The position numbers were made by a program, and so were the translations under genes. From Porpolomopsis calyptriformis (Eukaryota; Basidiomycota; Agaricomycetes; Agaricales; Hygrophoraceae), in contig OX621175.1 in the NCBI GenBank assembly GCA_951640195.1, positions 1,097,698 to 1,161,697 of the forward strand: 64,000 nt of DNA, read 5' to 3'. Within the stretch, counting starts at the first letter, position 1, and every line of letters starts with the position of its first letter. The notes beneath the pieces are model-generated. The model did not search any database, was not told where the DNA came from, and worked only from the letters and a program-made list of their open reading frames with translations. Below, one piece after another: positions 10,999 to 56,072 of the stretch.

Positions 10999-11157
10999 CC
11001 TCCCTCACCTTGCTTCTCTTCTCAAAAGTCGCTGGTCAAGATTCGTCTGACACCGACCATCATTGTTTTGGGTTACCAGACAAAGACCGTCGCTGTTGCC
11101 TCTCCGGAATCCTAACAGACTCCCCTGACTGACCCAACCTCTCTTGCCTTGAGAACC

Positions 11158-16600: not shown

Positions 16601-16750
16601 ACCCATATCGAGTTGAACTCCGAAGGGTTTGTGAAGATCATTCGGGATTGCATCATCAGAGATCACAGTGTCCCTTGATGCATCATCCACGATCACGATC
16701 CGCAATTCATTTCCAAATTTATAACTGATCTCTTTCACCTTCTGGGCACT

Positions 16751-16961
16751 TGTCACAACTGTAGTTGCAAGTCTTTTCGTCAATCACAAGGCAGGCCTTG
16801 GAGCTTAATAAGTCTAATAGGATGTAGAAGAAAGTTCTGATGGGGACATCCTTGTAAAGGGTGATGATTCCTCCTGAGTTAAGTTTTACTTCTACAAAGA
16901 AGTTGTTCTGCGAGTTAAATCCGTTGCGTGCCTCTGCTGAGAGTTTAGGGAATATGGGCAT
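16751..16961 (-). CDS. Divergent ORF of 1.7-kb element, copy A
   Basis: ATG at 16961 starts MPIFPKLSAEARNGFNSQNN and stays open to the element end at 16751 with no stop; it runs about 30 bases into B1. About 70 residues lie inside the element, ending KTCNYSCD. A TATA box (TATATAAACC, about 17107 in reverse) lies about 150 bases upstream. The frame is kept in all three copies. I do not recognise it. It may be the 5' part of a longer gene that continued into an internal region now lost. Confidence 0.55.
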
Positions 16962-17467
16962 GAACGATTGGCTCAGTAGTTATGGGTTTATGTTTCTCTT
17001 TTCTTGTTCTGATGGAAGAGAAGTCTGATGATTCTGATTGCATTCGTGCTACTACAAGTAATCTCACAGGAGGATGAAGTGATGATCCGCTTCGCCCTCA
17101 GGGTTTATATAGTATTTCTAAAATAGGAGTCACTATGAGTCAGCTTCCGCAGTCACCCCATTTTCTTTTGTTCACAGCCCCAGTTTAAGGTTTGCTATTG
17201 TTCTTAGTTATACTGCGCAAGGCTGTGTGCTTCTGATGACTCAATTCTATTAGGTATAGCCTTCCGCAGCATTAGGCTGTGTTGTCTCATAACTGGTTTC
17301 TATAGTTCTTCTAGTCATGAGATTGCTGTTGTTTCTATCTCTTGTCTGGCGTATTGGGTTTCTCTTCTTTGACTGAGGAACCTCCTTTTGGTCCTCCCTT
17401 TGTGTCTGGGCATATAAAAGGTGTGGGTTTGTATCCCTATGCTTCAGTTCAATCCTTGTCAATCATC

Positions 17468-18297
17468 ATAACTCCTTCCCACCAAGGCCACTACGTTCGA
17501 TTCTTCAAGCAGTCTGGAGTGGTGCACCGCACTGCTCCTGTCTTTCTTGATTGCGATTCGTTTCATTACTACCTCCAGCGCATCCCTTCCGACACTGACC
17601 TCTGTTGGTCTTCCTTTTCCTGCTTTGCTTGTGGTGGCAAGCACAAAGTCAAGAAGTGTCCGTTCGTTCGCTGGCCCATCCAGTATGCTTGCAGCTTGAT
17701 GGAGGATCCGCTTGGTGAGTATTTTGTTGTGTCTTTATTAGTCTGTGTTTATTGATAATAGGCTTTCCCTTTCTTAGCTTGGGATGATGACGCCCCTCCC
17801 CCTACTTCCCAGCTCCCTTTGGAGGAGCAGGTTAATTGGGGGTCTGACAAGTGGGCTGATTCTCTCCCTCCTGTCAAGAAGGAGGCAGTCGACTGGGCTG
17901 CTAGTCCTCCTTTCCATCCTTGGACCCCTGGTCCAATGAGTTCTTTATCTAGTGGTAAGCTCTCAATTCTCTCGCCCTCTTCATGATTGTTGACTCTTTA
18001 TTCTTAGTGGAAGATTTGTCATCGTCATTGACTAACGTCAATGTCAAGATCGAGGAGGAAGAAGTTCCTCCCAGTTTGTTATGGAGTCCCACCAACGATT
18101 GGTTGGGTGAGGAAGTGAGAAAGATAGCGATGAGTTTCATCGAGGGGAAGGCTGCTGAGTTGCAGGCCTCCGGTGGTGACACTAATGGGGCAATCTACTG
18201 GGGTAATAAGTTGGCCGCTTTAGATGGTCAAGTAGTTTCTAGTTTCGTAGAGTTCTTGAGAGATAGTATGGTGCAGGAGATTGCCAAGACGGACTAG
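17468..18297 (+). pseudogene. Spliced zinc-knuckle-like gene of 1.7-kb element, copy A
   Basis: Three exons, 17468-17714, 17778-17954 and 18008-18297, join in frame through introns of 63 and 53 nt with GTGAGT/GTAAGC donors and TTAG acceptors, giving 238 codons. Exon 1 encodes CFACGGKHKVKKCP (CX2CX3HX4C, a variant zinc knuckle). Exon 2 has VNWGSDKWADSL and a Trp/Pro-rich stretch. Exon 3 is Glu-rich then helical (WLGEE, AIYWGNKLAAL). A TATA (CATATAAAAGG) stands at about 17410. The expected ATG reads ATA here, so this copy probably lost its start. Copies B and C have identical exon lengths. Function is unknown; nucleic-acid binding is a guess from the knuckle. Confidence 0.7.
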
Positions 18298-19739
18298 TAT
18301 AATTAGCTAGTCGGACATGGATTCCTCCCTTTGTACAAGTAGTTTCTGCTGCCAATAAAGACAGCCTTCCCTCCAAAAGAATCGACATAAGAAAGAAAAG
18401 AAAAGAACGAAGAAAAGAGAGGAATTTTTAAGAGAGTGAATGCCAATTTCATGACAGCACTACCCAGAACGTTTCCACAGCTTATCATCCCCAGACCGAT
18501 GGCTAGTCCGAACAAATGAACCAGACACTCAAACAGTACCTTCGAGTTTTCGTCAATCATCATCAGGACAATTGGAAGGAATGGCTCGCGTTGGCTGAGT
18601 TCTCATACAACAATTCAGTTCACACCACCACACGACAAACCCCCTTCTACGTTAATTATGGCCAGAACCCCTGGAAAGGAAACGACACTACAAGAGAAGT
18701 CCAAAATGAGTCTGTGACCTAATTCACTGATTGAATGAAAAAATGTCCATCAAGAAGCTGAGGCCGCCCTCAAGAGAGCAAATGAAACCATGAAGATTGC
18801 CACAATAAACATGTCTGAACTGCCCAAGAATACTTGCCAGGAGATAAAGTCTGGCTGGCCACCACCAACATCAAAACCAAACGACCCATGAAGAAGCTTG
18901 ACAATAAATGCTTCAGTCCCTTCAGGGTTATTGAGAAGGTTGGCCACTCTGCCTACAAACTTGATCTCCCCCACGAATGGCTAGGACTCCACCCAGTTTT
19001 CAATGAATCTTATCTCTCTCCCTATTGTTCTCCTTCTTTTCCAAACCAGAAAAAACCTGCTCCTCCCCCCCCAATCCAACTGGAAGGTGACTCCGAATAT
19101 GTCATCGATGAAATTCTAGACTCTCATCTGCGACGAGGAAAACTCCAATACCTGGTACACTGGGAAGGCTACACCAGTGAAGAAAACACTTGGGAACCTG
19201 AGTCAAATGTCAAGAATGCTCAAGAACTGGTTGACGAGTTTCACACTCTCCATTCCGATCAACCAGCTCCTCGACTCTGACTATGCGTTATATGAATGGA
19301 CAACTTCTTCGGAATTAACGAATGTCTCTACGACCCAATCACAGACTCCACTGGCAAAGATTACAAACTGCCAAAGGTCAGTGACAATATCGACATTCTC
19401 ATCCCACTTCATCCCACAGAAGTTGACTGACTGCTCGAATGCAATTTCAACAGTTCTATCTTCCTCCCCCACTTGCCACCTACCGCTTGTCGAGCATGGG
19501 TTTATGAGACTAGTCCCGTCAATGCAATTACTGCTATTCTGTGACTGGACAGTCAAGGCCAACTGCTCCGAATGTATCAGCTGGTTTCTCCTCTATCTGC
19601 TCTGGAAATTTGTCGACGATACCAATATCATCTCCCGATCTCTCCCTGTTATGCACCTCAATGGCTACTACGAGACTACTCAAGGCATCTCCAATGCCTG
19701 TTCTAACGTTGCGCGGATGCGAATTTGAAGAGAGGGTGA

Positions 19740-20106
19740 TGTTATGGCTACTTCATTTTTCGTCTTGCCCACTTTCCTTATCTAATCTTATCTCTCCCCA
19801 ATCTAATCTTTGCCTTACCTCCTCATAGATTAGAGGTGATAACGCCATTAGCTGATGAAGACATGCTCCGCAGCAACTCCGCAGTAGCTGCGCAAGGCTG
19901 CATAATACTGCGCATTAGTCAGCCATTCCATGGATCGTCGCCATGGTTATCACAATCACAGCCCAGGCCTGGGTAGATATAAGTAGTGTACAGAATGCTT
20001 GTATCTCCCTAGATTTGTCCTTCAATGTTATCACCCCTAGCTTATGCGCTAGGCTCTTCGTTATCCCTTGTTCAAGCGACCTGAGACTCCGACTGCTGAC
20101 ATAACA
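19740..20106 (+). repeat. 3' LTR of B1
   Basis: Starts TGTTATGG and ends CATAACA, 367 bp, matching the 5' LTR. It is preceded by the purine tract GAAGAGAGGGTGA (about 19727-19739), the plus-strand primer. It is followed by target copy GCAGT. Confidence 0.95.
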
Positions 20107-21206
20107 GCAGTACCCTGAGAGCACAATGCTCTCATTTGACCAGGTTAAATGCCAGATCACTGACCTCAGCAGTATCATTCTGGTGATACACGATATGTGT
20201 CTGAACTCCTATTTGGCATACACTGGCCCTTGGGCAGAGTGTGAATGCTGCCCAATTTGTGGTGAAGATCGATATGACCAACAAAAGACCAATAGAACTC
20301 ACTGGATCCCTAGGCAACAGTTCCATACCCTTCCGATTGGCCCCCAGCTTCAAGCCCTCTGGAGAACACTAGAGGGGGCTAACAATATGCGTTATTGAGA
20401 ACAACATACCTTGGAGCTTCTGGCTGAACTTGAGGGCAATGGTAGCAATCTTGCTATTTATGATGATATTCTTTGTGGGAGTGACTACCTCCAGGAAGTT
20501 ATCGATGGTCAAATTAACTTGGGTGATATGGTTCTTATATTATTGATTGATGGTGCACAGCTCTATCAAAAAAAGGCTTCCAACACCTGGATATACATCT
20601 GGGTTGTTGTGAATCACACACCTGATGCACGATACAAGAAAAAACACATTTTGCCTGGTGGTTTTATTCCGGGACCTAATCCACCTAAGAATGTCGACTC
20701 TTACCTCTTCCCAGGTCTCCACCATCTTTCAGCAATCCAAAACGAAGGCCTATGCATCTGGGATGCCTCGCTTGGCAAGACCAGTACATCCAATGTCTTC
20801 TTCTTGCTTGGATGTGCTAATGTGCTAGGGATGGCACTGATTAGCAGACTTGTTGGTCACCATGGAAAGAAAGGCTGTCGGATATACTGTTCCTTACCTG
20901 GCCATCACAAGAGGGGCTTACCCCACTACTACCCAGCCCAACTCAAGCCAGACGACTACCTCATGGCTGGCTGTGATCATGGTGATGTTCCTATGACCTC
21001 AGTTGTGGGATCTGGAGGATGTGTAGAACAATACCGTACCAATCTCAAATATGTTGAACAATCCCCAAACAAAACTTGGTATGCAGAATGGCAGAAAGAA
21101 ACTGGTATCTGCAAGCCAAGTATCTTTGACAGCTTATCTCATTGCCTCCCTGTTCCTAGATGCTTTAGTCTCGACATCATGCATCTGCCTGCACTCAACA
21201 TACCTG
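20107..21206 (+). pseudogene. tnp2: Tnp2/Plavaka-type transposase, piece 2 of 4 (catalytic part)
   Basis: Continues from SILWR with MLSFDQVKCQITDLS, CPICGEDRYD, then after a TGA at 20396 (an expected Arg) the catalytic-type region: LLIDGAQLYQKK, WIYIWVVVNH, LPGGFIPGPNPPKN, LVGHHGKKGCRIYC, GCDHGDV and CFSLDIMHLPALNIP. These are hallmark blocks of the Tnp2 family with conserved Asp residues in IDGAQ, CDHGD and LDIMH. It stops at the target CCTG (21203-21206), where C1 inserted, and resumes at 29181. Confidence 0.9.
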
Positions 21207-21406
21207 TGTCATGATCCCAAACTGATTTGGTATCAAACTTAACCAAAGATCATGTATTCAGCAAGTAGCATCCTTAGCTCACACATCCTTATCTTATCTT
21301 ATCTTATCTTATCTTAGATAAGATATCACTGTCCCTCACATATTATCTTATCTCAGATAAGATACACTACTATCTTTACCTATGCTATCTTATCATGGAC
21401 AATAGC
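21207..21406 (+). repeat. Truncated 5' LTR of C1 with GATA-motif array
   Basis: The first 200 bases match the LTRs at 26419 and 58683. They hold five tandem TTATC units (about 21289-21314) running into TTAGATAAGATA, and a second inverted pair TATCTTATCT/AGATAAGATA near 21343-21363. The TTATC strand complement is GATAA, the core site of fungal GATA factors. Confidence 0.85.
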
Positions 21407-24400
21407 CTACCCTGAAGATGATAATGAAACTACACCTGCCGATTCAGAAGCCGACTACTACTACTTTACAGATGAAAATGAGATGGCAAGAGAATACCTC
21501 AACATTGATGACACTGTTATGATTCCATCTGATAACCTAGATAGCGAAGGTTTCCCCAAAGTGTTCACAGCCTACAAGAAGGTTAGCCAAAGGACTTACC
21601 CAGTGTCTGGGACATTCCCTGAAGCTGCTAGAGTAATCAGAAAGTTCCCTCACAACCCTTTATCCAGCTTCCCCTTCTTGCCAAGACAGCCCCCTGATTT
21701 CTCTCCAACCCCAAGACTCACTGAAGCTCGACTAGAATTTCTAAAGGTAAATGAAGAAGGGTTCCTTCTCCCTGAAGAAGAGAAACTATTCAATCATGTT
21801 ATGTGGCTTAACCAGGAAGCTATTGCCTTTGAAGATCCAGAACGAGGAACACTCAAAGAGTCATACTTTTCACCATATATTATTCCAACTATCCCGCACA
21901 CCCCTTGGGTGTATAAGAATATCCCTATCCCTCCAGGGATTTGTGAGAAAGTCATAGAACTCTTGAAAACCAAGATTGATGTAGGAGTCTATGAGCCAAG
22001 TCAATCATCCTATCAATCACGATGGTTCTGCGTCTTGAAAAAGAATGGAACCCTAAGAATTGTTCATGACCTTCAGCCTCTAAATAAAGTCACCATTAGA
22101 GATGCTGGTCTCCCTCCCATTGTAGATGATTTTGTAGAACCATTTGCAGGACGCCAATGTTACACAGTCTTTGACCTTTTCTGGGGATTTGATGCTAGAA
22201 AGGTCCATCCAGCCTCACGAGATCTTACTGCCTTTTATACACCACTTGGACTTCTTCGTATCACTTCATTGCCCATGGGATTCACTAACTCACCAGCTGA
22301 ATTCCAGAAATGTATGACTTTCATTCTTCAAGATGAAATCCCTGTAGTTGCAAACATCTTTATTGATGACCTGCCAATTAAAGGGCCTCCCTCAAGATTT
22401 CTCGATAAAGATGGAAAGCCAGAAGTACTTCCTGATAACCCTGGAATCAGAAGATTTATTTGGGAACATGCCTTAGATGTACACCGTGTTATGCACTGAG
22501 TAAAATGTGCAGGTGGAACCTTTGCTGCTAAGAAATCCCAGATATGTAGACCTAATGTGATTATAGTTGGATAGAAGTGTACCCCTGAAGGACGTTGTCC
22601 AGAGGATGACAAAGTATCCAAGATCCTCAAATGGCCCCCTCTCAAGACTCCTAAAGAAGTACGAGGCTTCTTAGGATTATGTGGAACAGTACGTATTTGG
22701 ATTCAAGACTACTCTCATCTGGCCAGACCTCTCACAGAATTGGTTCATAAAGATGCAGAGTTCATTTGGGATGATAGAAGACAAGAAGCCTTTGATACAC
22801 TAAAACAGAAAATCGCCTCAGCCCCAGCCTTACGTCCAATTGACTATCAATCAGACAATCCAGTTATATTATCTGTAGATAGCAGCTTTATTGCTGCAGG
22901 ATTTATCCTGTCCCAAATTGATGATGAAGGAAAACGTCGTCTAGCTAGATATGGCTCACTACCTATGAATGAAAGAGAGGCCAGGTATTCCCAGCCTAAA
23001 CTTGAATTATATGGACTATATCGTGCACTACACCATTGGAGGCTATATCTTATTGGAGTTAAGAATCTCCATGTAGAAGTTGATGCCAAGTATATCAAAG
23101 GCATGCTTAATGAACCAGATCTCCAACCCAATGCTGCTGTTAACAGATGGATCCAAGGGATTCTCTTATTTGATTTCAAACTTATTCATATACCTGCTAC
23201 TCAATTCAGAGGACCAGATGCCCTTTCTAGAAGAGAGTTAGCAGAGGATGAAGAATTCCCTATTCATAGTGATGCATGGTTAGATGATCTTGCATTACTT
23301 ATCCACGTTCCTTTACTTCAATCAATTAAAGATTTTTCATTTGTAACTGCTACACCCCTCCCTTACTCTTCATATGCCCTCCCTTCATCATCCACAAGAT
23401 CACGCCAAGACCTTTTATTATTAGAAATTTATAAATTCCTTTCTACTTTTCATCTACCCCATTTCTCAAGTTTACAGGAGTGAAAAAGATTTATCAAGAA
23501 AGCCACACAGTTCTTTGTGAAAGAAGAAAAGATGTTTAAAAGAAGCAACAAGTCACCATTACTAGTAATTCTAAAGCCAAAGAAGAGGCTTGCTATCCTC
23601 ACTCAAGCCCACGAAAACCTAGGCCATAAGGGAGAACAAGCAGTCTTTGAAATTATCCGCATACGATTCTTCTGGCCACATCTTAGAACAGATGTCCACC
23701 ATCATATCTCCTCATGCCATGAGTGCCAAATCCGAAGCCTCAAACGAATGGAGTTACCTCCTACAAATTCCACACCTACTACTCTTTTCGAAAAAGTGTA
23801 TATTGATGTTATGTTCATGCCTCCATCTGCTGGATTCCACTTCATTGTCGCAGCTCGTGATGACCTTACTGGAATAGTTGAAGCCAAGGCCTTACGTAGG
23901 AATGATTCCCAGAGCCTAGCTAAGTTCTTCTGGGAACAACTTTATTGCCGATATGGAGCAATTGGTCATGTTGTGACAGATAATGGAAGTGAAGTCAGAG
24001 GAGCATTTGAAATATTGCTGCAGAGACTGAATATACCCCAAGTTCGGATCTCTCCATATAACAAGCATGCCAATGGAGTTGTGGAATGTGGTCACTTCAC
24101 ATTACGAGAGGCTATCGTCAAGTCAAGTGACAAAGATAAATTTGGAAGGATCAGAAACTGGCACAAACAGGTGGAGATAGTAGCCTTTGCTGACCAAGTT
24201 ACAGTCAGTAGTGTTACAGGATATTCCCCATATTATCTCCTTCATGGAATGCATCCCTTATTACCCTTTGATCTTGCAGAAGCTACCTTCATGGTTGAGG
24301 GTTTCCAATTAGGATTATCAACCTCTGATCTCCTTGCCCTGAGGATTAGACAGCTAGAACGACATCAAGAAGATATTGACAAAGCTGCTGAAACTCTAAA

Positions 24401-24812
24401 GAAAGCTCGTTTCAAGTCTAAGCAATAGTTTGAACACCGTTTCAGGAAGCGTCTCATCAGAAGATATTATAGACCAGGAGAACTAGTCCTTGTCAGAAAT
24501 AGCCGATTAGAATCTACCTTAGGAAGGCTCAAGACAGAACCAAGGTACCTTGGCCCATATAAGGTAGCCAAGAGAACGACAAGAGGAGCCTACATCCTCC
24601 AGGAACTGGATGGAGCCGAACATGTGGAACATTATGCTGCATTCCGCTTACTCCCCTACATCTATTGAGATAGCCCTACCCTATATAGATTATCCCATGA
24701 TGATGAGATTGCTGATGGGCAAACAGCTTCCGAGGACTCCGATCATCGATCAGAACCCAGCGATCTGGACACTGATATTGAAATGGGAAGTTTAAGTAAT
24801 GAGACTTCCTAA
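21405..24812 (+). pseudogene. pol: pol of C1 (RT-RNase H-integrase), few stops
   Basis: The frame is open from the deletion joint at 21405 to TAA at 24810 except for TGA 22497, TAG about 22572, TGA 23481, TAG 24426 and TGA 24666. RT has WFCVLKKNGTLRIVHDLQPLN and the active site FIDDLPIKGPP (about 22356). RNase H has SVDSSFIAAGFIL and GPDALSRRE. Integrase has HENLGH..CHEC, then YIDVMFMP, VTDNGSEVRG and NGVVE (D,D,E), and a GPY-type end (RYLGPYKVAKRTTRGAYIL). No chromodomain follows; instead an acidic tail ends the protein. The IDD-P-KGP signature is shared with D1 (YIDDIPVKGP), so C and D form one lineage separate from A, B and E. Confidence 0.9.
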
Positions 24813-24896
24813 TCAAGACTTAATCGTCGATCAGATCTAGCCACCTGATGTAAACTGCATGCCCCCACACTCGCTTATTACTTTCCTTCAATCTAG

Positions 24897-25481
24897 ATGA
24901 CGACAAGCTACCTCCTGCTGCAAAGTCCCTCCCCTCCACTCGAAATCAAACCGCTCATCATGTCGACACCCTATTCCGCTGAAGCACAACACCAATGGTT
25001 CAACTGGGACCAGGCAAACCCGAACAACCAAGCCACATCTAGCAACCTCCCCCCACCTACGACACACGTACTGCTGCCCCCACCTCTCACTGCCTACGAT
25101 TGCCATAACCCCCACCAACCCCTTTATACCCTCATGCCTGCAATGGATGAGGCACCGGCTAATCCGTCAAAGGACGAAATCATCGCGACCCTACTTAGGG
25201 ATTGACATCAGCAAGACGTGTACCTTCGGAAGCTCGAGAGCGAGCTCTTTGAGCTCAACGGCAAACTTGTAGGGCAGGAGCTAGTGCTACATTTAAGGGC
25301 GGAAATGATTGAGTATTGGATGGATCAAGCTACATACTGGGAGTCTAGGTATGTAACAGCATATGGGCAAAGCGCGTTCATCCCATCTATTCCCCCCCTT
25401 CCCCCCAATGTCATTATCCCTCCTTCATCTCTCATTGGTGCCAATGGCCCCATGGAGGAAGAACCCTTAGATAGGGAGTAG
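24897..25481 (+). pseudogene. Post-pol coiled-coil ORF of C1 (one internal TGA)
   Basis: ATG at 24897 (MTTSYLLLQSPSP) opens a 195-codon frame ending TAG at 25479, broken only by TGA at 25203. The head is Pro/Asn-rich. The middle is a charged helix with the paired motif EYWMDQATYWESRY (about 25314-25355), and the tail is Pro-rich and acidic (PPSSLIGANG). The layout matches the post-pol ORFs of A1 and E, where E has RYWQEQAKYWEAKH. The ORF starts 85 bases after the pol stop on the same strand. Family unknown; a coiled-coil oligomer is the likely form. Confidence 0.65.
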
Positions 25482-25693
25482 TATTTGTTCCTCATACACG
25501 CGCCGCCAATTCTTTGTTTTATTTTTGTATAGTCCTTTTTACTCTTTTTACCACAATGTCACAGAAAGAATCTCTTATTAGGAGTAATCCCTGTAAATAG
25601 GAGAGACATTGGGTAAATAATTAAATATGTAAACCCTCTACAAGCGACAGAATCATTAAAGGATTGACTAAGATTTCAGCTCAGGCTAGTCAC
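25482..25693. other. Spacer between two post-pol ORFs of C1
   Basis: No ORF. Runs of T and AT-rich sequence near 25510-25550 could end transcripts of the upstream ORF. Confidence 0.35.
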
Positions 25694-26338: not shown

Positions 26339-26914
26339 TGTAGAAACTACTGGGTCAAAGGTATTATATTGTGCAAGAATCAACTGAGGACAGTTGTAAT
26401 TTCTTTGTCCCCTGCAGATGTCATGATCCCAAACTGATTTGGTATCAAACTTAACCAAAGATCATGTATTCAGCAAGTAGCATCCTTAGCTCACACATCC
26501 TTATCTTATCTTATCTTATCTTATCTTATCTTAGATAAGATATCACTGTCCCTCACATATTATCTTATCTCAGATAAGATACACTACTATCTTTACCTAT
26601 GCTATCTTATCATGGACAATAACATTCTCCCCCATTGTTCTCTGAGTTAGAATGACTCATATCCCATTTGTCTATTGTTCTGTCATCACTCCATTGTTCT
26701 CTGAGTCACTATGACTCATATTAATCCACTCCATTGTTCTCCTCATTGTCTGACTCTGTCATGAAATTGGCGTTCACTCTCTTAAAATTTCTCTCTTTTC
26801 TTCGTTCTTTTCTTTTCTTTCTTATGACAGTTGTTTTGAGAGGAAGGCTGTCTTTATTGGCAGCAGAAATTACTTGTACAAAGGGAGGAGTCCATGTCCG
26901 ACTAGCTAATTATA

Positions 26915-27745
26915 CTAGTCCGTCTTGGCAATCTCCTGCACCATACTGTCCCTCAAGAACTCTACAAAACTCGACACTACTTGACCATCTATTGCGGCCA
27001 ACTTATTACCCCAGTAGATTGCCCCATTGGTGTCACCACTGGAGGCCTGCAACTCAGCAGCCTTCCCTTCAACAAAACTCATCGCTATCTTTCTCGCTTC
27101 CTCACCCAACCAATTGTTGGTGGGACTCCACAACAAACTGGGAGGAATTTCTTCCTCCTCGATCTTGACGTTGACATTAGTCAACGACGACGACAAATCT
27201 TCCACTAAGAATAAAGAGTCAACAATCACGAAGAAAGTGAGGGAATTGAGAAGCTTACCACTAGATAAAGAACTCAATGGACCAGGGGTCCAAGGACGGA
27301 AGGGGGGACTGGCAGCCCAGTCAACTGCCTCCTTCTTGACAGAAGGGAGGGAATCAGCCCACTTGTCAGACCCCCAATTAACCTGCCCCTCCAAAGGGAG
27401 CTGGGAAGTAGGGGGAGGGGCATCATCATCCCAAGCTAAAGAAGGGAAAGCCTATTATCAACAAACACAGACCAATAAAGACAAAACAAAATACTCACCA
27501 AGCGGATCCTCCATCAAGCCGCAAGCATGCTGGATTGGCCAGCGAACGAATGGACACTTCTTGACCTTGTGCTTGCCACCGCAAGCAAAGCAGGAGAAAG
27601 AAGACCAACAGAGGTCAGCGTCGGAGGGGATGCGCTAGAGGTAGTAGTGAAACGAATCGCAATCGAGAAAGACAGGAGCAGTGTGGTGCACCACTCCAGA
27701 CTGCTTGAAGAATCGGATGTAGTGGCCTTAGTGGGAGGGAGTCAT
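26915..27745 (-). pseudogene. Spliced zinc-knuckle-like gene, copy B
   Basis: Exons 27745-27499, 27435-27259 and 27204-26915 have the same lengths (247, 177, 290) and splice phases as copy A. The knuckle CFACGGKHKVKKCP is intact. ATG at 27743-27745 is present, but codon 6 is TAA where copy A has CAA, so this copy is likely null unless translation starts downstream. The last two exons are open to TAG at 26915. Copy C shares the same TAA. Confidence 0.7.
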
Positions 27746-27941
27746 GATGAATTGACAAGGATTGAACTGAAGCATAGGGATACAACCCCACACCTTTTAT
27801 ATGCTCAGACACAAAGGGAAGACCAAAAGGAGGTTCCTCAGTCAAAGAAGAGAAACCCGATACGCCGGACAAGAGATAGAAACAGCGGCGATCTCATGAC
27901 TAGAAGAACAATAGGAACCAGTTATGAGACAGCACAGCCTG

Positions 27942-28004
27942 ATACTGCGGAAGGCTATGCCCAATAGAGTTGAGTCATCAAAACAACACAGCCTTCCGCA
28001 GTAT
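27942..28004. promoter_or_regulatory. Palindrome in divergent promoter, copy B
   Basis: Perfect 15-bp arms ATACTGCGGAAGGCT (27942-27956) and its complement (27990-28004) flank a 33-bp spacer that contains TGAGTCA, a bZIP (Gcn4/AP-1) site. It sits between the two divergent genes, with TATA boxes on either side (about 27795 in reverse and about 28105). Confidence 0.65.
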
Positions 28005-28252
28005 GACTAAGAACAATGGCAAACCTTAAACCGGAGGCTGTGAACAATAGAAAATGGGGTGACTGCGGAAGCTGACTCATAGTGACTCCTATTTTAGAAA
28101 TACTATATAAACCCTGAGGGTGAAGCGGATCATCACTTCATCCTCCTGTGAGATTACTTGTAGTAGCACGAATGCAATCAGAATCATCAGACTTCTTTTC
28201 CATCAGAACAAGAAAAGAGAAACACAAAACACAACTACTAAGCCAACCATTC

Positions 28253-28463
28253 ATGCCCATATTCCCTAAACTCTCAGCAGAGGCACGCAACGGATTCAAC
28301 CCGCAGAACAACTTCTTCATAGAAGTAAAACTTAATTCTGAAGGAATCATCACTCTATATGAAGACGTCCCTGTCAGAACCTTCTTCTACATCCTACTGG
28401 ACTTATTGAGCTCCAAGGCCTGCCTTGTGATTAACGAAAAGACTTGCAACTACAGTTGTGACA
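28253..28463 (+). CDS. Divergent ORF of 1.7-kb element, copy B
   Basis: ATG at 28253 starts MPIFPKLSAEARNGFNPQNN and is open to the element end, then runs about 140 bases into the LTR flank. The 70 residues in the element differ from copies A and C at only a few positions. The TATA box is about 140 bases upstream. Function unknown. Confidence 0.5.
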
Positions 28464-29176
28464 GACTCATGGTGAGTCACAATTCAAACTCCTCATTGTT
28501 CTTTTATCCATTGTTCTTATTTCCTATTGTTCTCATTGCCCATTGTTCTCAAACATATATAAAGGGCCCCCTTTTCACCAATGAGGAGTTCAGTTCACAT
28601 TAAGTTCACATTTAGTTCACTTTCAACCCACTTTATCCCTCCCCCCCCACTCTCCCCCTTTTCCCTTGAACTCACCCCCTAGTACTCAGTACCTAGTACT
28701 ACCTCTTATTGATACTACTTGTCTGTAGTCAATACATCCAATCTAGTCTAGTCTATTAAGCTTATACCCTGTGTGATTTCGCCTAAGCCCTCTTACGTTA
28801 AGAACCAACTTAGGAATCACCCCTTAACGTTTTCTATAAGTTGAAAATAGCCATCGTGGACTATCTTATCTTACTTCAGCCCCTGCTTATTCATCACATT
28901 CTCTAAGTCTCAGTCCTTATTGGAGAGACCTCACTGTGATACGTATTCTTCTAAGTCAGCCATTGACTTCATTCTTGTTCTCCCAGTCAATACTATCCAT
29001 TGAGTTTGGATAGCCTGTTCATCTGTACATCCTAGCCAAGGATTACTCAAGCCCCACCAAAGGAGGAAGTGTCCATTACTCAATCAATTCACATCTCCCC
29101 CGAACAACTAGGACTTACTTGATTAACGTACAACTCCAGTAGTTCTAGAAGTGAAGTATTTATATTTCACCTGATA

Positions 29177-30034: not shown

Positions 30035-30642
30035 TGATACGACCCCTCCGTCCCCTGAGCACCGTATATTCAACTATACAAATACTAGACACCTATCAAG
30101 TCCTTCGAACATGAACTCGAACCCTCTGAATGCTCCCAATAGCTCCCAAACATCCCAAACAAGTTCAAGAATTATCAAACTCTCTAAACGCGATTGAAGC
30201 TTTCCAAATGCGAATGAAAGTTTGTATATCAAAGGGAAGACACTATTCAAAGGCATTAATTCTCTTCTATTTCTCCCTTTTCATTCAACTTCTTCATTCC
30301 CATTTACTACTTTCCCCTTAGATCATTAGAGAGGCTCCCCTTTTATCATATACATTCAAAGGGATCCTTTTACTAGAAGATATATATACTGTATGTTGTA
30401 GCTAGTGATCCAACAAGTTAGATATTTGCTTCTCTCTCGCTCTCGAGTCTAGATCCTCTCTAGATCTTCTAAGACTTCCTCTTTCGATCTTCCAATCCTT
30501 CCAATTCCCCGATTGATCACGTTTGCAAATGATCGAAGACTTCCTATCCATGATCATCAATCATAGACTGTGTCAAGACTCTTTATAGTCATCCTCGCAC
30601 CTTGTTCTGTGTTTGGTTCTCATACATGAAGCAGATGTATCA
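30035..30642 (+). repeat. 5' LTR of D1
   Basis: 608 bp, TGATACGACCCCTCCG to GATGTATCA. A TATA-like GATATATATACTG is at about 30380. Other copies: 40080-40667, 49840-50439 (reverse), 63791-64000 (reverse, cut by window end), and a diverged fragment at 42625. Confidence 0.95.
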
Positions 30643-30644
30643 TT

Positions 30645-30663
30645 TTGGAGCCTACCGTGAGGG
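30645..30663 (+). promoter_or_regulatory. tRNA-type primer-binding site of D1
   Basis: TTGGAGCCTACCGTGAGGG starts two bases after the 5' LTR, with the TGG expected for a tRNA 3' CCA end. The D2 and F copies read TTGGAGCCCACTGCGAGGG at the same place (about 49834-49816 and 61517-61499, reverse). Thus D and F share one primer tRNA while B does not use one. Confidence 0.65.
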
Positions 30664-30837
30664 CCCACTATTAAATCTTAAAAGATTCCTTCAACTCAGT
30701 CCTTTGAACCGCCATTCCCAATGCACAATCGAGTCACTCAAAGCACTACCCTATGAGATAGATTCACTTGGAACATCAATCCAACCCAACCAACACTTCC
30801 CCTCTTCCAAATAAATCAAAACCCAACTTCAATCAAT

Positions 30838-31907
30838 AATCCTGATTTGCCCGATGAACCCTCCTCTACCTTATTGCTTTTGTCATTATCCTCGATTTCT
30901 ACAATGACTATGACAACTCCACCAAACCTAGTAATGCCTGCTTGCAGTCACTCAACCACCCCAAAGTTCAACCCCAAACAACCTTGAGAACTTCGAAGAT
31001 ACTTCCAAGACCTTAGAGGTCTCTTCGCTAACTGTAGCATCAATGATGACAATGCTAAGAAGACTTATGCTTGCAAATACGTCGACATCGATAGGTCTGA
31101 ACTCTGGGAATACCAAATGGAGTTCCAAGCTGGACATATGTTCAATGAATTTGTTGCTGCTATCTATAAACTTTACCCAGGATTGGAAGACAATCGAAAG
31201 TGGTCCATCACTAATATGGACAAGATAGTCGGAGAACAACTTTGACTAGGAATCATGAACACCAACAAACTCAGAGCATATTTCCAATCGTTCCTTGCAA
31301 TCACTAAATTCCTGCGATCGAAGAACAGAATCTCTGAAGCGGAACAAAGTCATGCCTTCATCTGAGGATTCCAACCCGAACTCTGGTCTAGGATTGTCCG
31401 ATGACTGGAAATCAAGTTCCCTGACCACTTCCCTGATGATCCTTACAGGGTAAATGATATCAATGAGGCAGAAAATTTCATTCTGTATGGAACATCTCCA
31501 AACACCTTTCTACCGCGTGAAACTATGACTTCGACAATAACTACTGCCCCTGCCACTAAACAAAAAGACCTCAGCGTCTTCATGGAGAAACTAATGACTA
31601 TGCTTGTCAAAACCCTGGACAATAGAGGTCCCCCGAAATGAAACCTGCCCCCTCGATCACCACAATCTTTGGAACGACAACCCAATGCTCCTGACCCATT
31701 CGAGCCGAAAACTTGCGTCTTCTGTGGAAGTCCTGATCACTTCATCGGAAGCTGCCTGACCTGTCACAAATATATTCAAAACAGTTGATGCAAGAAGAAC
31801 TTCGAAGGAAGGATCATACTCCTGAATAACAGGTTTGTCCCCCAGCAAATGCCGGGAAAAACCTTGAAAGAATGAATGGTACAAGCAAAACCCAACTCCA
31901 ACCACTG
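30838..31907 (+). pseudogene. gag: gag of D1
   Basis: A broken frame contains the gag core (LRRYFQDLRGLFANCSIN, KYVDIDRSELWEYQ, FVAAIYKLYPGLED, LRAYFQSFLAITKF, DDPYRVNDINEAENFIL) and then a zinc knuckle CVFCGSPDHFIGSC (CX2CX4HX4C) at about 31709-31750. Stops at about 30988, 31243, 31363 and later sites are mostly TGA. The likely ATG is in the run near 30904. A reverse copy of its first two thirds is at 49027-49690. Confidence 0.8.
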
Positions 31908-31909
31908 GA

Positions 31910-34900
31910 ATGATGTATGGAATTTCAGCTAGTATCAATTGCGACCCAGCAACCAAAACTTATCAACTATCTGCCGACGAATGGATCGCTGCTCTTGAAA
32001 AAGAGATTTTCGCATTAAAGAGCAAAAAGACGTTCGATGGAGTAGAGATCATTCGGCCCCGACGACAAGAACCAGATAAAGAGAAAGCAGCTGACAAAAC
32101 ATCGAGTGTTCCAATCGCGACCACCCTGACTCAACCAGCTACGCAGGAACATCCATTCACGAAAGTGAAAGAGTCTAACTACATACTGCCCCACATCCAA
32201 AACTTTGGCTCTCTGATGGCGAAAAGAGACAAAGACCCCTCATACCACACTCAAGTGCCGATCCAAGACTCGAAAATCGCCTCCGACGTCTATACTCATT
32301 CGATGAAAACCCCTTGCGTCATGCTATCCCCTGAAGAATTGCTATCCCTCTCACCCAAAGTCCAATCAAAGGTTCGAGAGGCAGTAACCCCTAAACAAAC
32401 TCAGCCTCCTAGTCGACTGATCATGGTCAAAACCATTGAAGTAGAAGTGATTCCGAACAACACTCTTCCCTATTGCGATGACAATGATTGTTCCATCACC
32501 GTTCCTGACCCCTATGAATCAGATCTGAACACCCTCTCATCCAATGAAACTCCTCACACTGTTACTGTCACAAAGGAATCGCATGCTCTCTGATCAATTG
32601 TCATGTTGATCGATCATAAAGAAACGATTGAATGTATCATTGATCCCGGATCTCAGATAATTGCCATGTCTGAAGCCGTTTGCCATGATCTAGGACTAAT
32701 CTACAACCCAACCATTCAACTCAATATGCAATCAGCCAACAGTGAAATAGACCAATCCTTAGGTCTCACAAGGAATGTCCCCTGTCAGATTGGCAACATA
32801 ACCCTCTACCTTCAGATCCACGTCATTTGCACTCCCACCTACGATATCTTGCTCGGAAGACCATTCGACATTTTAGCTCAAAGCCTCATCAAGAATTTCA
32901 CTGATGAAAACCAGACGATTAGTATTTGCGATCCAAATAGCAGAAGGACCGTCACGATTCCGATGGTTCCACGAGGTCTACTGAAGCATCGTTCGGATTT
33001 TCACTCATCGAGGATTTGATTCCTGATCAAGGAGAGATCACGATAATTCTAGATTATGACCACGCTACATCTATGCTATCTATCAATTCCTGTGCGCCTC
33101 TATGCACATCAAATAAAGTTTCAACAGTTTCCCATGCTTATTTATCTGCTTGTGACCTCCCCAACCTTATCTCTAAATCTCAATTGACTAGCAATCGACC
33201 TTCCAATTCCAACCATCTCAATCAATCAATGGAAATTGCAACCTTCCTCGCATCGAAAAAGAAATACAAACCTGTCTCAAAGAAAGTTCGCTCCGTAGTA
33301 GCTGAACTTCCCAACAAGTTCCAAATCATTCGGAAAATCCTTGGTGATCCACTCGCAGACATGCCAACACTCGACCTGAACCCCCCAATGTTTACTCTGA
33401 CCGAAAGATATACGATCAAACGGATGGAGCTTTTCAATAAGGCTTACCCCAGAGATTTCCTTTGGCCCCAGGAAAGGGCCCTCCTTCACAATTTCATAAG
33501 AAAGCAAGATCTTGCCTTGGCCTGGAATGACTCTGAATGAGGATGTTTCAGATCTGACTTTTTCCCTCCCATCGACCTTCCGGTCATACCACATATGCCT
33601 TGGGTGCAAAAGAATATTCCGATTCCCCCAGGGATCTACCACAAAGTATGCAAAGTTATCCAGTGAAAAATTGATGCTGGTGTCTATGAACCATCGAACT
33701 CCTCCTATCGATCGCAATGGTTCACCATTCTAAAGAAAGGAGGGAAAGAACTTAGAATCGTTCATAGTCTCGAACTACTCAATCAAGTCATGATTTGACA
33801 TTCAGGAGTCACACCAATCCCTGAACACTTGGCTGAACAGTTCGGCAGTCGATCCTGCGGCGCTATGTTCAATCTTTATATCAGATATGATGAATGAGTG
33901 ATTGCGCCTTCGTCTCATGATCTAACCATGTTCTAAACACCCTATGGGGCTCATCGACTAGTTACCCTACCCATGGGATGGACCAACTCTGTGCCTGTTT
34001 TTCACGACGACATCACCTATATTCTCCAACCAGAGATTCCTGAGTTTACGATCCCCTATATCGATGATATCCCTGTAAAGGGTCCTGTGACTTGATATAT
34101 ATTACCCGACGGATCCTATGAAACGATTCCAGAAAATGACAGAATTCGACGATTCGTGTGGGAACACTTCGGGAATCTCAATCGGATAGTCCAGTGAATG
34201 AAATATTGTGGTGGAACCATGTCAGGCTATAAATTGTTCTTGTGCATAGAAGAAACCACCATTCTTGGACACCGATGTACTCACTTAGGATGAATTGCGC
34301 ATATCTGCAATCTGAAACTGGGGTCCCTGTAAAGACCTCTCTGAAGTTGGAGCCTTCCTTGGCACTATTGGCGTCATTCAAATATTCATTTGCAACTTCG
34401 CACACTGAGCGCACCACCTAGTCAAGCTCACTAGGAAGGATATGCCCTTCGAATTTGGTCCCGATCAGCTCGCTGCCCAAGAGGACTTAAAACAAGCCCT
34501 TCTAGAATCGCCCGCTCTACGAGTTCTTGATTATACTTCTGACGCCCCTGTCATACTCACTGTCGACACCTCCTATATCACTGTTGGCTTTCACTTGTGC
34601 CAATGCGATCCTGACAACCCGAAGAAAAGGTATTATAATCAATTTGGTTCAATCACGCTGAACGATCGAGAAAGAAGGTTCTCTCAACCAAAACTCGAAA
34701 TCTACAGTCTCTATCGAGCTTTGCGATCACTCCGACTCTACCTCATTGGTGTTCGGAACCTCATTATAGAAGTCGATGCCCGCTATATCAAGGGAATGCT
34801 AGCGAACCCAGACATCGCGCCTCAAGCCAGTATTAACAGATGGATCGTAGCAATCCTAACATTCCATTTTACCTTGGTACACATCGCTGGTTCGAACCAC

Positions 34901-36509
34901 AGTCCCGACAGTCTCTCTCGATGCCCCTGACAGCCTGATGACCAGGACAATGAAGAGCCGATAGATAAAGACTTTGACAATTGGATCAATCGCGTCCATG
35001 GATTAATGCACCATATCAACAATTTGCCTATGCCCTGAATGAAAACCCTCCAATTGCCAACCTCAGTTTACTTGCAGAGTAAACATCTTAGTGAGGAGGA
35101 GGAGAACCCAATCCATCCATGTACCAATTCCTATAATATTGTTCCACGATTGGCAGCAGCTCAGTAAGACGATCAATGACTTATCTCCATTTGAAAATGG
35201 CTCTCAGATCTTGAACGACCGAGAAACATGTCTGACAGCGACTATGTGAGTTTTATACGATACTGTGAAGAGTTCTTTATCAACAACAACTGACTATGGC
35301 GAAAAGATAGACAAGGCACTCACAAATTAGTCATCAATCCGGATCACTGATTAGCGATCATGACAGAACTTCACGATCAAACAGGCCACAAGGCTATCTT
35401 CACTACCCGATCGATCATTTCTGAATGTTTCTGGTGGCCTCATATGGCCCCCGACATAGTCTGGTTCATTCGGATGTGTCATACCTGTCAGGTTTGCCAA
35501 ACCACGCAAGCCCTCATCCCTCCAACTGTCTCCATGCCAGCTCCCCTATTCGCCAAAATCTACGTCGACACTATGCACATGCCCCAATCTGGTCCATTTT
35601 GATATATAGTCCAAGGGCGATACTCCCTCACCCACTATCCTGAATTTTGAAGGCTTCAATCAGAAACAGCGAAATCGATTGGCGAATGGATCTTCAAGGA
35701 TATAATCTGTCGTTAGGGCTCTCTTCGAGAAATCGTCACGGACAACGGAACAGCCTTCTTAGGAGCCATAGATCGCCTTGCCAAGCGCTATCAGATCAAC
35801 CATATTCACATCAGCAGATACAACTCTCGCGCGAATGGGATAGTCGAATGATCTCACTTCGACATATGACAATCACTATTCAAAGCCGTCAATGGCAATC
35901 AGAAGCAATGGTCGATTGGAGCCTACTCTGTATTTTGGGCTGAGCGCGTCACTACCCGAAAGCGATTGGGATGCTCACCCTACTTCGCCGTCACTGGATC
36001 TCAGCCATTGCTTCCTTTAGATATTTCCAAAGTGACATATCTCCTTCCCGCTCCAGATTCGGTTCTCTCGATGACTGATCTCATTTCGCAATGCATGATC
36101 ACTCTACAGAAACGAGATGCTGACTTAGAGCAACTTCGATCTACGATCCGCCATTCAATTTGAGAAGAGACACGAGAAAACCATTCACGACTACAACTTC
36201 AAAACTGGCGATCTCATACTCATTCAGAACACGAAAATCGAGAAGTCTCTCAATTGGAAGATGTGTCCTCGATACCTAGGACCCCTAGTCGTGATATCCC
36301 GAAACCTAGGAAAAGCTTATATTGTCGCAGAGCTCGACGGATCTGTCTTACATCACCTGATTGCTGCATTTAGAGTCATCCCATACTTCGCTTGAAGATC
36401 GATCGCAATTCCCAAATGATTCCTCAACATATCGACTTCACGACTTAGAGAGATAGAACATTCGCTAGCTAGCGAACCACTTGATAGCGTTGCAATTGAG
36501 GACTTGTAA
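31910..36509 (+). pseudogene. pol: Protease-pol of D1, heavily decayed
   Basis: Open pieces in order: linker (31910-32593), protease with IECIIDPGSQIIAMSE (DPG in place of DTG) and LLGRPFDIL (32603-33019), a linker, RT with PYIDDIPVKGP (about 34055), RNase H with TVDTSYITVGFHL and SPDSLSRCP (34442-34930), integrase with HDQTGH..CHTC (35360) and the D,D,E residues in YVDTMHMP, VTDNGTAFLG and NGIVE, and an acidic tail ending TAA at 36507. More than a dozen stops, mostly TGA, interrupt it. It has no chromodomain, as in C1. Confidence 0.85.
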
Positions 36510-37724
36510 CCTGCCATAATGCATCACTATGCACTTTTTTTTTCATTTCAAAGCCTTTCTTTCATTTTTTTAGAAACCAGAAATACAAATTTTTAAAGAA
36601 GGAAAAGACTATGGCTATAGGAGTATACAAAGTACAAGTCTACAAATTCTCTAAAAACATTTCCTCCTCTTTTTCTTCCAAACCCCTGTATATCTCTTTG
36701 AGAACGACAATCCGTGCCTTTACACATGCTTTCTCCTCCCAATCGCCACCAAAATCTCCCACGATTTCTCTTCATCGGCTGCTGTCACCTTCACCTTCCC
36801 TTTCCAACCCGCGATTAGCTGCATCGAACTCTCACCCACCATCTCCTCCTTGAAAGGTGGGGTCTCGTCGATATAAACCACAGGACCTGGAAAAGAATTA
36901 GTTAGAAAGAATAAAGAAAACAATAGAAAAAGGAAAACTTATGAGAGATGGCCCTCACCGACTTTCGAACTCCCTTCGATTCTCCCGCCATTGCTGACTT
37001 GTTCGCGCCCTTCAATTCCGCCTTGGGCCGCAGTTTGTACTTCTTCCCCAGCTGATTCTCCCCCTTCCAATAACACCCACACTTATCTGTTATGCACTTG
37101 ATGCACAATGGATCGGCAGGGCTGATTAAACAGTTGGCACCAACTCACCTACAAAAATCACACTGCGAATAAAAATAAAAATGATTAGAAAAAGAAAATC
37201 AAAAGAAAGAAAAAGAAAGACCTTGCCCTTGACTGGGCACAAGGTCTCCTCCATCGCCTTCCTCTTCTGAAACTCCCATGTCATAATCACAGGGAGCAAC
37301 CATCCCTTCGCTGCCATTCTCTCCTGATAGGCAGCCTGTGACCTCTCGACTTCATCTTCTGCAGTCAGCGATTGCACTGCTGCCGCCAATTCGTCTTTGC
37401 CATCTGGGGGCTGGTGCCCATCCTCCGTCATCTCCATCATCACCCCCGTCATGTCTGGCATGTCTGCTGACACCTCCACCGCCTTCATTCCGCCTTCGCC
37501 TGCCGCCTTTTCTGTCTCTCAATGGAACTCCTCCTCATCAATTTTTTCCATCTATAAGTGACTGGATGTCATGAAATTGGTGTTCACTCTCTTAAAATTC
37601 CTCTCTTTTCTTCGTTCTTTTCTTTTCTTTCTTATACCAGTTCTTTTGGAGGGGAGGCTGTCTTTATTGGCAGCGGAAACTACTTGTACAAAGGGAGGAA
37701 TCCATGTCCGACTAGCTAGTTATA

Positions 37725-38555
37725 CTAGTCCATCTTGGCAATCTCCTACACCATACTGTCCCTCAAGAACTCTACAAAACTCGACACTACTTGACCATCT
37801 ATTGTGGCCAACTTATTACCCCAGTAGATTGCCCCATTGGTGTCACCACCAGAGGCCTGCAACTCGGCAGCCTTCCCTTCAATGAAACTCATTGCTATCT
37901 TTCTCGCTTCCTCACCCAACCAATTGTTGGTGGGACTCCACAACAAACTGGGAGGAATTTCTTCCTCCTCGATCTTGACATTGACATTAGTCAACGACAA
38001 CGACAAATCTTCCACTAAGAATAAAGAGTCAACAATCATGAAGAAAGTGAGGGAATTGAGAAGCTTACCACTAGATAAAGAACTCAATGGACCAGGGGTC
38101 CAAGGACGGAAGGGGGGACTGGCAGCCCAGTCAACTGCCTCCTTCTTGACAGAAGGGAGGGAATCAGCCCACTTGTCAGACCCCCAATTAACCTGCTCCT
38201 CCAAAGGGAGCTGGGAAGTAGGGGGAGGGGCGTCATCATCCCAAGCTAAAGAAGGGAAAGCCTATTATCAACAAACACAGACTAATAAAGACAAAACAAA
38301 ATACTCACCAAGCGGATCCTCCATCAAGCCACAAGCATGCTGGATTGGCCAGCGAATGAACGGACACTTCTTGACTTTGTGCTTGCCACCGCAAGCAAAG
38401 CAGGAGAAAGAAGACCAACAGAGGTCAGCGTTGGAGGGGATGCACTAGAGGTAGTAGTGAAATGAATCTCAATCGAGAAAGACAGGAGCAGTGCGGTGCA
38501 CCACTCCAGACTGCTTGAAGAATCGGACGTAGTGGCCTTAGTGGGAGGGAGTCAT
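37725..38555 (-). pseudogene. Spliced zinc-knuckle-like gene, copy C
   Basis: Exons 38555-38309, 38245-38069 and 38014-37725 have the same 247/177/290 lengths as copies A and B. It shares with copy B the TAA at codon 6, and has an extra TAG at 37746 near the end where A and B read Gln. The knuckle codons are kept. TATA (CATATAAAAGG in reverse) is at about 38603-38613. Confidence 0.7.
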
Positions 38556-38751
38556 GATGAATTGACAAGGATTGAACTGAAGCATAGGGATACAACCCCA
38601 CACCTTTTATATGCTCAGACACAAAGGGAAGACCAAAAGGAGGTTCCTCAGTCAAAGAAGAGAAACCCGATACGCCGGACAAGAGATAGAAACAACGGCG
38701 ATCTCATGACTAGAAGAACAATAGGAACTAGTCATGAGACAGCACAGCCTG

Positions 38752-38814
38752 ATACTGCGGAAGGCTATGCCCAATAGAGTTGAGTCATCAAAACAACACA
38801 GCCTTCCGCAGTAT
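38752..38814. promoter_or_regulatory. Palindrome in divergent promoter, copy C
   Basis: Perfect 15-bp arms (38752-38766 and 38800-38814) flank a 33-bp spacer with TGAGTCA. TATA boxes for the two genes lie on both sides (about 38608 reverse; TACTATATAAACC at 38911). Copy A has the same arms with two mismatches. Confidence 0.65.
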
Positions 38815-39063
38815 GACTAAGAACAATGGCAAACCTTAAACCGGAGGCTGTGAACAATAGAAAATGGGGTGACTGCGGAAGCTGACTCATAGTGACTCCT
38901 ATTTTAGAAATACTATATAAACCCTGAGGGCGAAGCGGATCATCACTTCGTCCTCCTGTGAGATTACTTGTAGTAGCATGAACGCAATCAGAATCATCAG
39001 ACTTCTCTTCCATCAGAACAAGAAAAGAGAAACATAAACCCATAACTACTGAGCCAATCATTC

Positions 39064-39274
39064 ATGCCCATATTCCCTAAACTCTCAGCAGAGGCACGCA
39101 ACGGATTCAACTCACAGAACAACTTCTTTGTAGAAGTAAAACTTAACTCAGGAGGAATCATCACCCTTTACGAGGACGTCCCTGTCAGAACTTTCTTCTA
39201 CATCCTACTAGACTTATTAAGCTCCAAGGCTTGCCTTGTGATTGATGAAAAGACTTGCAACTACAGTTGTGACA
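39064..39274 (+). CDS. Divergent ORF of 1.7-kb element, copy C
   Basis: ATG at 39064 (MPIFPKLSAEARNGFNSQNN) reads LNSGGIITLYEDVPVRTFF and LSSKACLVIDEKTCNYSCD to the element edge without a stop, then continues into the host gene's antisense by chance. An earlier ATG at 38979 is followed by a stop and is absent in copy B, so 39064 is preferred. Unknown family. Confidence 0.5.
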
Positions 39275-39912
39275 CTGGAGGAGCCTCTTGTAGGCTTCCT
39301 CCACCTGCTTCCAGCCCTCCACATCCTGTTCCTCCCATACCTCTCGCTCCTGCTTCTCGTGCACCTCCCGTTCTGCCCTCTCGACCCACTCGCGCTCCTC
39401 TCACTTCTCTCATTCTTCGCGCTCCACTCGCTCTCATTCCTCTTGCTCCTCGCGCTCGACCCTCTCTCGTTCCTCCCACGCAGACATCTCTGCCCTCTCC
39501 CTTGCCTCATATTCTTCTTCCTCCCTTCGCTCTCGCTCTACCCTCTCTGCCTCCACTTTCTCTTCGACCTCCCGATGCACCACCTCTGCTAGTCTCAGCA
39601 TCAACAACTCCCCCACCCAATCCAGCCACCCTTGTTCTTCGAAAATGTCGAAGGTCTTGCAGGCCTCCTTTTGCCACACAATGACCTCGTCGTCCATCGA
39701 TGTTTCCTTCAGGGCCTTCACGACCCAATTATACGCAATCTAAAAAGATGGATTAGTGAAGAAAAACAATTAAAAAACATGAGACTTACCAGCAATTTAC
39801 AAAACTGTTGCCCCCAGACTTTATAGTCTTCAGGTTCGGCAACTCCATCTGGGAGCGACTTCATCTGGTCACTGATCTTCTGTTTCGCGATAATTATGAC
39901 ATTCTTTGACAT

Positions 39913-56070: not shown

Positions 56071-56072
56071 TA

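Follow-up and report, generated by a model that had tools for sequence, protein, structure and literature searches.

Three units of 1.7 kb lie in a window of 64,000 nucleotides from the basidiomycete Porpolomopsis calyptriformis (contig OX621175.1, positions 1,097,698 to 1,161,697), each opening with TGTCA, closing with TGACA and flanked by an exact duplication of five base pairs (Table 1). An earlier reading, made from the sequence alone, had described these units, their ends and their duplications, all of which are borne out by the letters, and had left two interpretations standing: solo long terminal repeats (LTRs) of a retroelement in whose U3 lies an antisense spliced gene and whose coding begins inside the LTR, or small gene-bearing DNA transposons. 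Of the two, the first holds: the retroelement is a chromodomain Ty3/Gypsy retrotransposon and the units are its solo LTRs. The whole account given below, in which this LTR carries both the start of an open reading frame (ORF) ahead of gag, here called ORF0, and a selected antisense gene with two introns in U3, and in which the element primes its own reverse transcription and the product of the antisense gene acts in trans, appears to us very probable.

Each of the three units, the second and third of which are inverted relative to the first, contains a gene with exons of 247, 177 and 290 nt and GT..AG borders at both introns, a CX2CX3HX4C knuckle and two TATA boxes, as well as an opposite frame (MPIFPKLS..) that stays open for 70 codons up to the end of the unit; in all these features the sequence-only reading was accurate. 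It had not noticed that in the window the gene, although its structure stands, is broken in every copy. Empty sites for two of the insertions are present in the window itself: the joined flanks of copy 1 align without gaps at 53130-52733 (83% over 398 nt) and those of copy 2 at 58819-59205 (92%, 15 gap positions), while no empty site for copy 3 was found within the window.

Complete elements and solo LTRs

The genome that contains the window (33.5 Mb in 17 contigs) was searched with the 1.7-kb unit and the best 40 of 294 candidates were scored, LTR counts being for this reason lower bounds. Each of these 40 spans the unit, with 89-100% identity, a recurrence that is not due to chance. The search for direct pairs of the unit, which the earlier reading had proposed as a check, yielded three same-strand pairs about 5.35 kb apart, and all three complete elements that were fetched consist of an LTR of 1706-1708 bp, an internal region (5353, 5356 and 5341 bp) and a second LTR, for a total of about 8.76 kb. 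They are flanked by the target duplications CTGAT, GTGAT and ATCTA, and the two LTRs of each are 98-99% identical. The internal region matches the Pfam families Retrotrans_gag, RVP_2, RVT_1, RT_RNaseH, rve and SH3_Tf2-1; pieces of two elements give the order RVP_2 (protease), RVT_1, RT_RNaseH and rve, which is that of Ty3/Gypsy elements, and, as in chromoviruses, a chromodomain (Chromo, PF00385; E 1e-15) follows the integrase. The gag part holds a CCHC knuckle of its own (zf-CCHC). In all three elements the pol frame ends about 15-20 nt short of the 3′ LTR and a purine-rich AGG(G/A)AGGGGG precedes TAA and the 3′ LTR. The internal coding is spread over several frames, with stops, in the complete copies read.

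Most copies of the unit stand alone. Setting aside the three complete elements leaves 36 copies, of which 31 have exact target duplications, 3 have duplications that differ by one base and 2 have none, the pattern expected of solo LTRs. The genome holds 16 internal starts (all 16 candidates scored) and 15 copies of the reverse transcriptase (RT) at ≥91% identity, the next matches being at ≤59% (best 150 of 953 candidates), against at least 150 copies of the first exon of the antisense gene, all at ≥90%, with no more diverged relative among the best 150 of 270 candidates; solo LTRs therefore far outnumber complete elements.

The LTRs of the three complete elements differ from their partners at 35, 31 and 24 sites (2.1, 1.8 and 1.4%), and 86 of these 90 differences are transitions, 65 of the 90 falling on a CpG in one of the two LTRs, which points to decay by deamination of methylated cytosines rather than to very recent insertion. 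LTR copies across the genome likewise decay mostly by transitions, many at CpG, and the observed/expected ratio of CpG is 0.43-0.56 in the three 5′ LTRs. At one locus (L018, G000:C7:543228-546644) an LTR copy has inserted into an LTR of the same family in the opposite orientation, with an exact duplication (GAAGG). In two neighbouring Gypsy elements of the same genome, drawn from 135 lower-identity RT matches and 58-59% identical in RT, the LTRs measure 449 and 410 bp, too short to hold such a gene. Another Gypsy family at 57-59% RT identity (L042 and L043) has long open frames, one of 1479 codons, and LTR pairs that are 100% and 99.8% identical, and by these signs looks recently active.

Promoters and proposed self-priming

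The features of the LTR were traced in an alignment of 42 copies, made up of the best 40 of the 294 genome candidates and two further copies from the window. Both TATA boxes, one for the retroelement RNA and one for the antisense gene, are identical throughout this alignment (Table 1). The primer-binding site, AGGACGAAGTG, starts two bases inside from the 5′ LTR and is exact in 12 of 16 elements. Its 11-nt complement, CACTTCGTCCT, is found in the LTR 30 nt after the start of the sense TATA box TATATAAA, and this match is exact in 23 of the 42 copies, with one mismatch in 18 and two in 1; an exact match to the primer arose anywhere in only 1 of 2000 shuffles of one LTR. This is the arrangement of the Tf1/sushi group, 11 nt at TATA+30 complementary to the primer-binding site, the RNA 5′ end being a prediction based on the TATA box. 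In the predicted leader of 397 nt, the centroid fold also pairs the self-primer helix. The element would thus prime reverse transcription with the 5′ end of its own RNA in the manner of Tf1, and the complementarity establishes which strand is sense, where the RNA probably begins and where U3 is bounded, U3 taking up about 1.38 kb of the LTR.

A predicted spliced antisense gene within U3

As the sequence-only reading had supposed for a solo LTR, the knuckle gene lies in U3 and antisense to gag-pol, with its promoter, exons, introns and stop all inside it. Both GT..AG introns are kept in all 42 copies, no copy has a frameshift, and the frame of 236-237 codons is unbroken in 22 of them. The predicted protein of 236-237 residues carries the knuckle, whose C52, C55, H59 and C64 are kept in 41, 42, 42 and 40 of the 42 copies, followed by an acidic part rich in tryptophan.

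Insertions and deletions respect this frame. Exons have 2 in 714 nt, both of 3 nt; by comparison, the 116 nt of intron contain 8, all of lengths not divisible by three, and the 666 nt of non-coding LTR contain 29, of which 4 have lengths divisible by three. The difference between exons and the 37 events of introns and non-coding LTR together (33 not multiples of three) has a p of 4e-10 per site. Variable sites in the exons are distributed 72/40/124 over the three codon positions (p 1e-10) and 48/55/53 in the non-coding promoter stretch, so that the periodicity is confined to the exons. Changes found in at least three copies are mostly silent (45 nonsynonymous to 77 synonymous, with 2 stops), while those seen in single copies are not (39 to 24, with 6 stops); leaving out 13 multi-allelic columns, and with the two-copy class (17 nonsynonymous, 9 synonymous and 4 stops) on neither side of the test, p is 0.002 without stops, 0.0003 with stops and 0.001 outside CpG. 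This contrast indicates selection in the lineages that multiply, single copies decaying nearly freely. The ratio of nonsynonymous to synonymous polymorphism (pN/pS) among intact copies is 0.13, compared with 1.78 and 1.42 in the two wrong frames. Judged by its substitutions, the antisense gene in U3 evolves as a protein-coding gene, and it would be transcribed and spliced as one.

Whether the protein matters to the element can be weighed against several other explanations. A host gene, once real, may have been captured in the LTR and since merely dragged along; its two spliceosomal introns resemble those of a host gene caught at the DNA level or in antisense, the short LTRs of the neighbouring Gypsy elements imply that the cassette was gained by the lineage of the knuckle gene or lost by its neighbours, and 20 of the 42 copies are broken. 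We consider this unlikely, since a mere passenger would not account for shared changes that are far more silent than singletons, for the lack of any exon frameshift or for a periodicity limited to exons, which together argue that the gene was kept working in multiplying lineages. The same constraint at the level of codons, with the preserved frame, makes it very unlikely that the antisense transcript acts simply as RNA, for instance as a double-stranded RNA brake, the frame being incidental; antisense transcription of LTRs is described and action through double-stranded RNA proposed in passages of PMC7264820, and an additional role of the RNA could still exist. No more credible is selection on behalf of the host, with the knuckle protein adopted as a host gene family that LTRs have spread: the first exon is present in at least 150 copies, 129 of them free of stops, far above the 16 internal starts, but near-neutral singletons and 20 broken copies in 42 are what is expected if only multiplying copies are constrained. 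The small DNA transposon, favoured by the prevalence of lone 1.7-kb units with short inverted ends, is rejected with near certainty, because complete elements have the unit as their terminal repeat, two copies in the same orientation 5.3 kb apart that enclose gag-pol, a primer site and a purine tract, and a Pfam search of the proteins of the unit found no transposase domain.

ORF0, a frame born in the LTR

That coding starts inside the LTR, as had been suggested, is also the case. ORF0 (167 codons) begins within the LTR, 0.12 kb past the point where the RNA is predicted to start, has its first 70 codons inside the LTR, crosses the primer site into the internal region and stops 101 nt inside gag, whose start it overlaps in the +1 frame. 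Its length of 504 nt is kept in 15 of 16 elements and its frame is unbroken in 6. Among these 16 elements, the LTR part has 16/5/37 variable sites at the three codon positions and the internal stretch ahead of gag has 10/9/24, and the excess at third positions is absent from the overlap with gag (10/3/9); the LTR part in the 42 LTRs gives 17/7/43 (p 2e-7) with no insertion or deletion in 210 nt. The substitution patterns demonstrate constraint on both proteins, that of the knuckle gene and that of ORF0.

By the Kozak rule the ATG of ORF0 stands in the weaker context. One element has a stretch of 400 nt free of other ATGs, where shuffles average 5.7 and lack any in 0.2% of cases (1.2% when codon order is shuffled); other ATGs are absent from 2 and number one to four in 10 of the 12 copies in which both starts were located, and one ATG precedes ORF0 in 16 of 40 LTRs. 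These counts are no more than suggestive that gag may be reached by leaky scanning past ORF0; re-initiation and frameshifting are the other candidate routes. In copy 3 the ORF0 frame leaves the solo LTR into the flank and an open frame of 212 codons results (39046-39681); read-through of this kind at solo LTRs could produce chimeric proteins.

Table 1. Features of the three solo LTRs in the window (copy 1 in detail)
Feature	Position	Strand	Remarks
Solo LTR, copy 1	16751..18456	-	1706 bp; strand is retroelement sense; GCACT at 16746-16750 and 18457-18461
Solo LTR, copy 2	26757..28463	+	1707 bp; GACTC at 26752-26756 and 28464-28468
Solo LTR, copy 3	37567..39274	+	1708 bp; CTGGA at 37562-37566 and 39275-39279
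ORF0, LTR part, copy 1	16752..16961	-	First 70 codons, MPIFPKLS.., open to LTR end
Predicted RNA 5′ end/self-primer, copy 1	17071..17081	-	Complement of the primer-binding site found in complete elements; copy 1 has one mismatch
TATA box of retroelement RNA, copy 1	17104..17112	-	CTATATAAA, identical in 42/42 copies
TATA box of antisense (knuckle) gene, copy 1	17411..17420	+	CATATAAAAG, identical in 42/42 copies
Knuckle gene exon 1, copy 1	17468..17714	+	247 nt; ATA for ATG; bears CX2CX3HX4C
Intron 1, copy 1	17715..17777	+	63-64 nt across 42 copies
Exon 2, copy 1	17778..17954	+	177 nt
Intron 2, copy 1	17955..18007	+	53-58 nt across 42 copies
Exon 3, copy 1	18008..18297	+	290 nt including stop
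Possible poly(A) signal, copy 1	18353..18362	+	AATAAA in 27/42 copies, AACAAA in 15/42
Knuckle gene, copy 2	26915..27745	-	Start to stop with introns; stops at codons 6 and 37
ORF0, LTR part, copy 2	28253..28462	+	
Knuckle gene, copy 3	37725..38555	-	Stops at codons 6, 29, 37 and 231
ORF0, LTR part, copy 3	39064..39273	+	

Surroundings of the solo LTRs

Copy 1 is apparently nested in a larger element (10619-20039) with direct repeats of at least about 300 bp at 10619-10918 and 19740-20039, a relative of which, in the opposite orientation and without the insertion, spans 51279-58431 between direct repeats at 51279-51578 and 58132-58431. Copy 3 is enclosed by a pair of direct repeats (30197-30496 and 40222-40521, 95%), probably LTRs that belong to a further element. 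A further pair of direct repeats of 241 nt (44593-44833 and 45434-45674), 85% alike, are 841 nt apart.

Relatives and points that weigh against the proposal

The reverse transcriptase of the element, used as a control, retrieved 7896 proteins from a database of 5.8 billion, with Lyophyllum shimeji at 64% among the 120 listed. The fungal material in this database is mostly made of short unspliced metagenome contigs, in which a spliced relative could be missed. Together with the short introns, the Lyophyllum match would fit a host among the mushroom-type basidiomycetes. Searched by sequence, PDB offered the knuckle protein nothing beyond weak matches (best E 0.12). The open-access literature yielded no description of an LTR that contains a spliced antisense gene, subscription papers and Repbase lying outside this search.

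Several observations weigh against the proposal as a whole. In the same protein database, 295 candidates for relatives of the knuckle protein included none at E up to 1 and 13 candidates for ORF0 none that was confirmed; none of 4 pattern matches of exon 1 in IMG/VR was confirmed, and no Pfam family matched the antisense protein at E up to 10, zinc-knuckle models and TRP28 (PF04195) included. Because no relative of either protein was found, the assignment of a function rests on motif and layout. Structure predictions are poor, with a pLDDT of 31 for ORF0 as a single sequence and of 47 for exon 1, for which an alignment of nine near-identical rows was used. As 40 of the 42 aligned copies are the best-scoring of 294, sampling favours intact ones, and the pN/pS of 0.13 is somewhat too low, as the strong bias toward transitions lowers the NG86 estimate. 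The contrast between shared and singleton changes is not significant for ORF0 (p 0.55), 15 of the 42 copies lack AATAAA behind the knuckle gene, and the minimum free energy fold of the leader is without the primer helix and does not exceed shuffles in stability (z 0.02). The splicing, the two start sites and the translation are all predictions.

Proposed mechanism and role of the knuckle protein

In the mechanism that we propose, sense transcription would start at TATA+30, ORF0 and gag-pol would be translated and the RNA would prime itself, while antisense transcription from the same promoter region would yield the mRNA of the knuckle gene. The introns would be removed only from the antisense RNA and, not being introns in the genomic RNA, would persist through the RNA stage; its antisense direction would thus account for the survival of a spliced gene in a retroelement. 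Its place in U3 would provide the gene twice per element, once in each LTR of every insertion, and recombination between the LTRs would delete gag-pol and leave one copy of the gene at a solo LTR.

The knuckle protein would act in trans on the element, probably as its regulator. This part of the mechanism, of which we are less sure, is suggested by the bidirectional promoter that the gene shares with the element RNA and by a motif of nucleic-acid-binding type joined to an acidic remainder rich in tryptophan. An activator or anti-silencing factor is the leading candidate, though a tentative one; an RNA chaperone or capsid-related protein and a copy-number repressor each seem rather unlikely, to the same degree, and any other role slightly more so. 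It is possible, if doubtful, that the LTR is itself the gene-carrying unit, its antisense regulator being protected both through the RNA stage and against collapse to solo LTRs, and well over 100 solo LTRs forming a dispersed trans-acting family that feeds or limits a few complete elements, with ORF0 also born in the LTR.

When an LTR retrotransposon collapses to a solo LTR, any extra gene that it carries is usually lost. A gene in U3 escapes this loss, as there are two copies per insertion and one is left per collapse, and insertions and leftover LTRs spread copies of the antisense gene as well. Solo LTRs are normally viewed as dead remnants or as promoters; if the knuckle protein acts in trans, they would be a living part of the biology of the element. 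The family also offers a clear test case: in hundreds of natural copies, 1.7 kb accommodate a gene, another frame that starts in the LTR and the promoter that the two share.

Comparison with known systems

The machinery is that of an ordinary chromodomain Gypsy element, and the unusual part is the accessory gene carried in U3. Tf1 primes with the first 11 bases of its RNA (PMC7175516). The self-priming fungal Gypsy elements Tf1/Tf2, Tj1 and Tcn1 resemble the present one in the 11-nt complement, which here has its target adjoining the LTR, and in the presence of a chromodomain. They differ in that the available passages on them mention no LTR gene, and self-priming is here predicted from complementarity alone.

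Coding that begins in an LTR has a precedent in Ty1, whose coding begins inside the 5′ LTR, although here the LTR-born frame is a separate ORF0 ahead of gag. The Sag protein of mouse mammary tumor virus is coded in the LTR in the sense direction, and HBZ of human T-cell leukemia virus (HTLV) has its coding mostly outside the LTR; unlike both, the promoter, exons, introns and stop of the present gene lie wholly in U3 and in antisense. HTLV is similar in having an antisense gene driven by an antisense promoter of the LTR, HBZ and APH-2 being described in passages of PMC11963269 and PMC7264820 as antisense genes expressed from such a promoter in the 3′ LTR.

The plant Ty3/Gypsy elements Grande (gene23), RIRE2 and Retand (TRP28) carry, after pol and ahead of the 3′ LTR, an extra ORF in antisense, the antisense gene of Grande has its own promoter, and a regulatory function is thought likely for the plant antisense ORFs, according to excerpts of PMC7264820 and PMC11963269. 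They share with the present element a conserved extra gene antisense to gag-pol; the antisense protein described here has no match to the TRP28 family (PF04195) of Retand. Their extra gene is present once per element, whereas here it lies inside U3, twice per element and with two introns, and, while theirs would be lost with the internal region, here it is kept by the solo LTRs.

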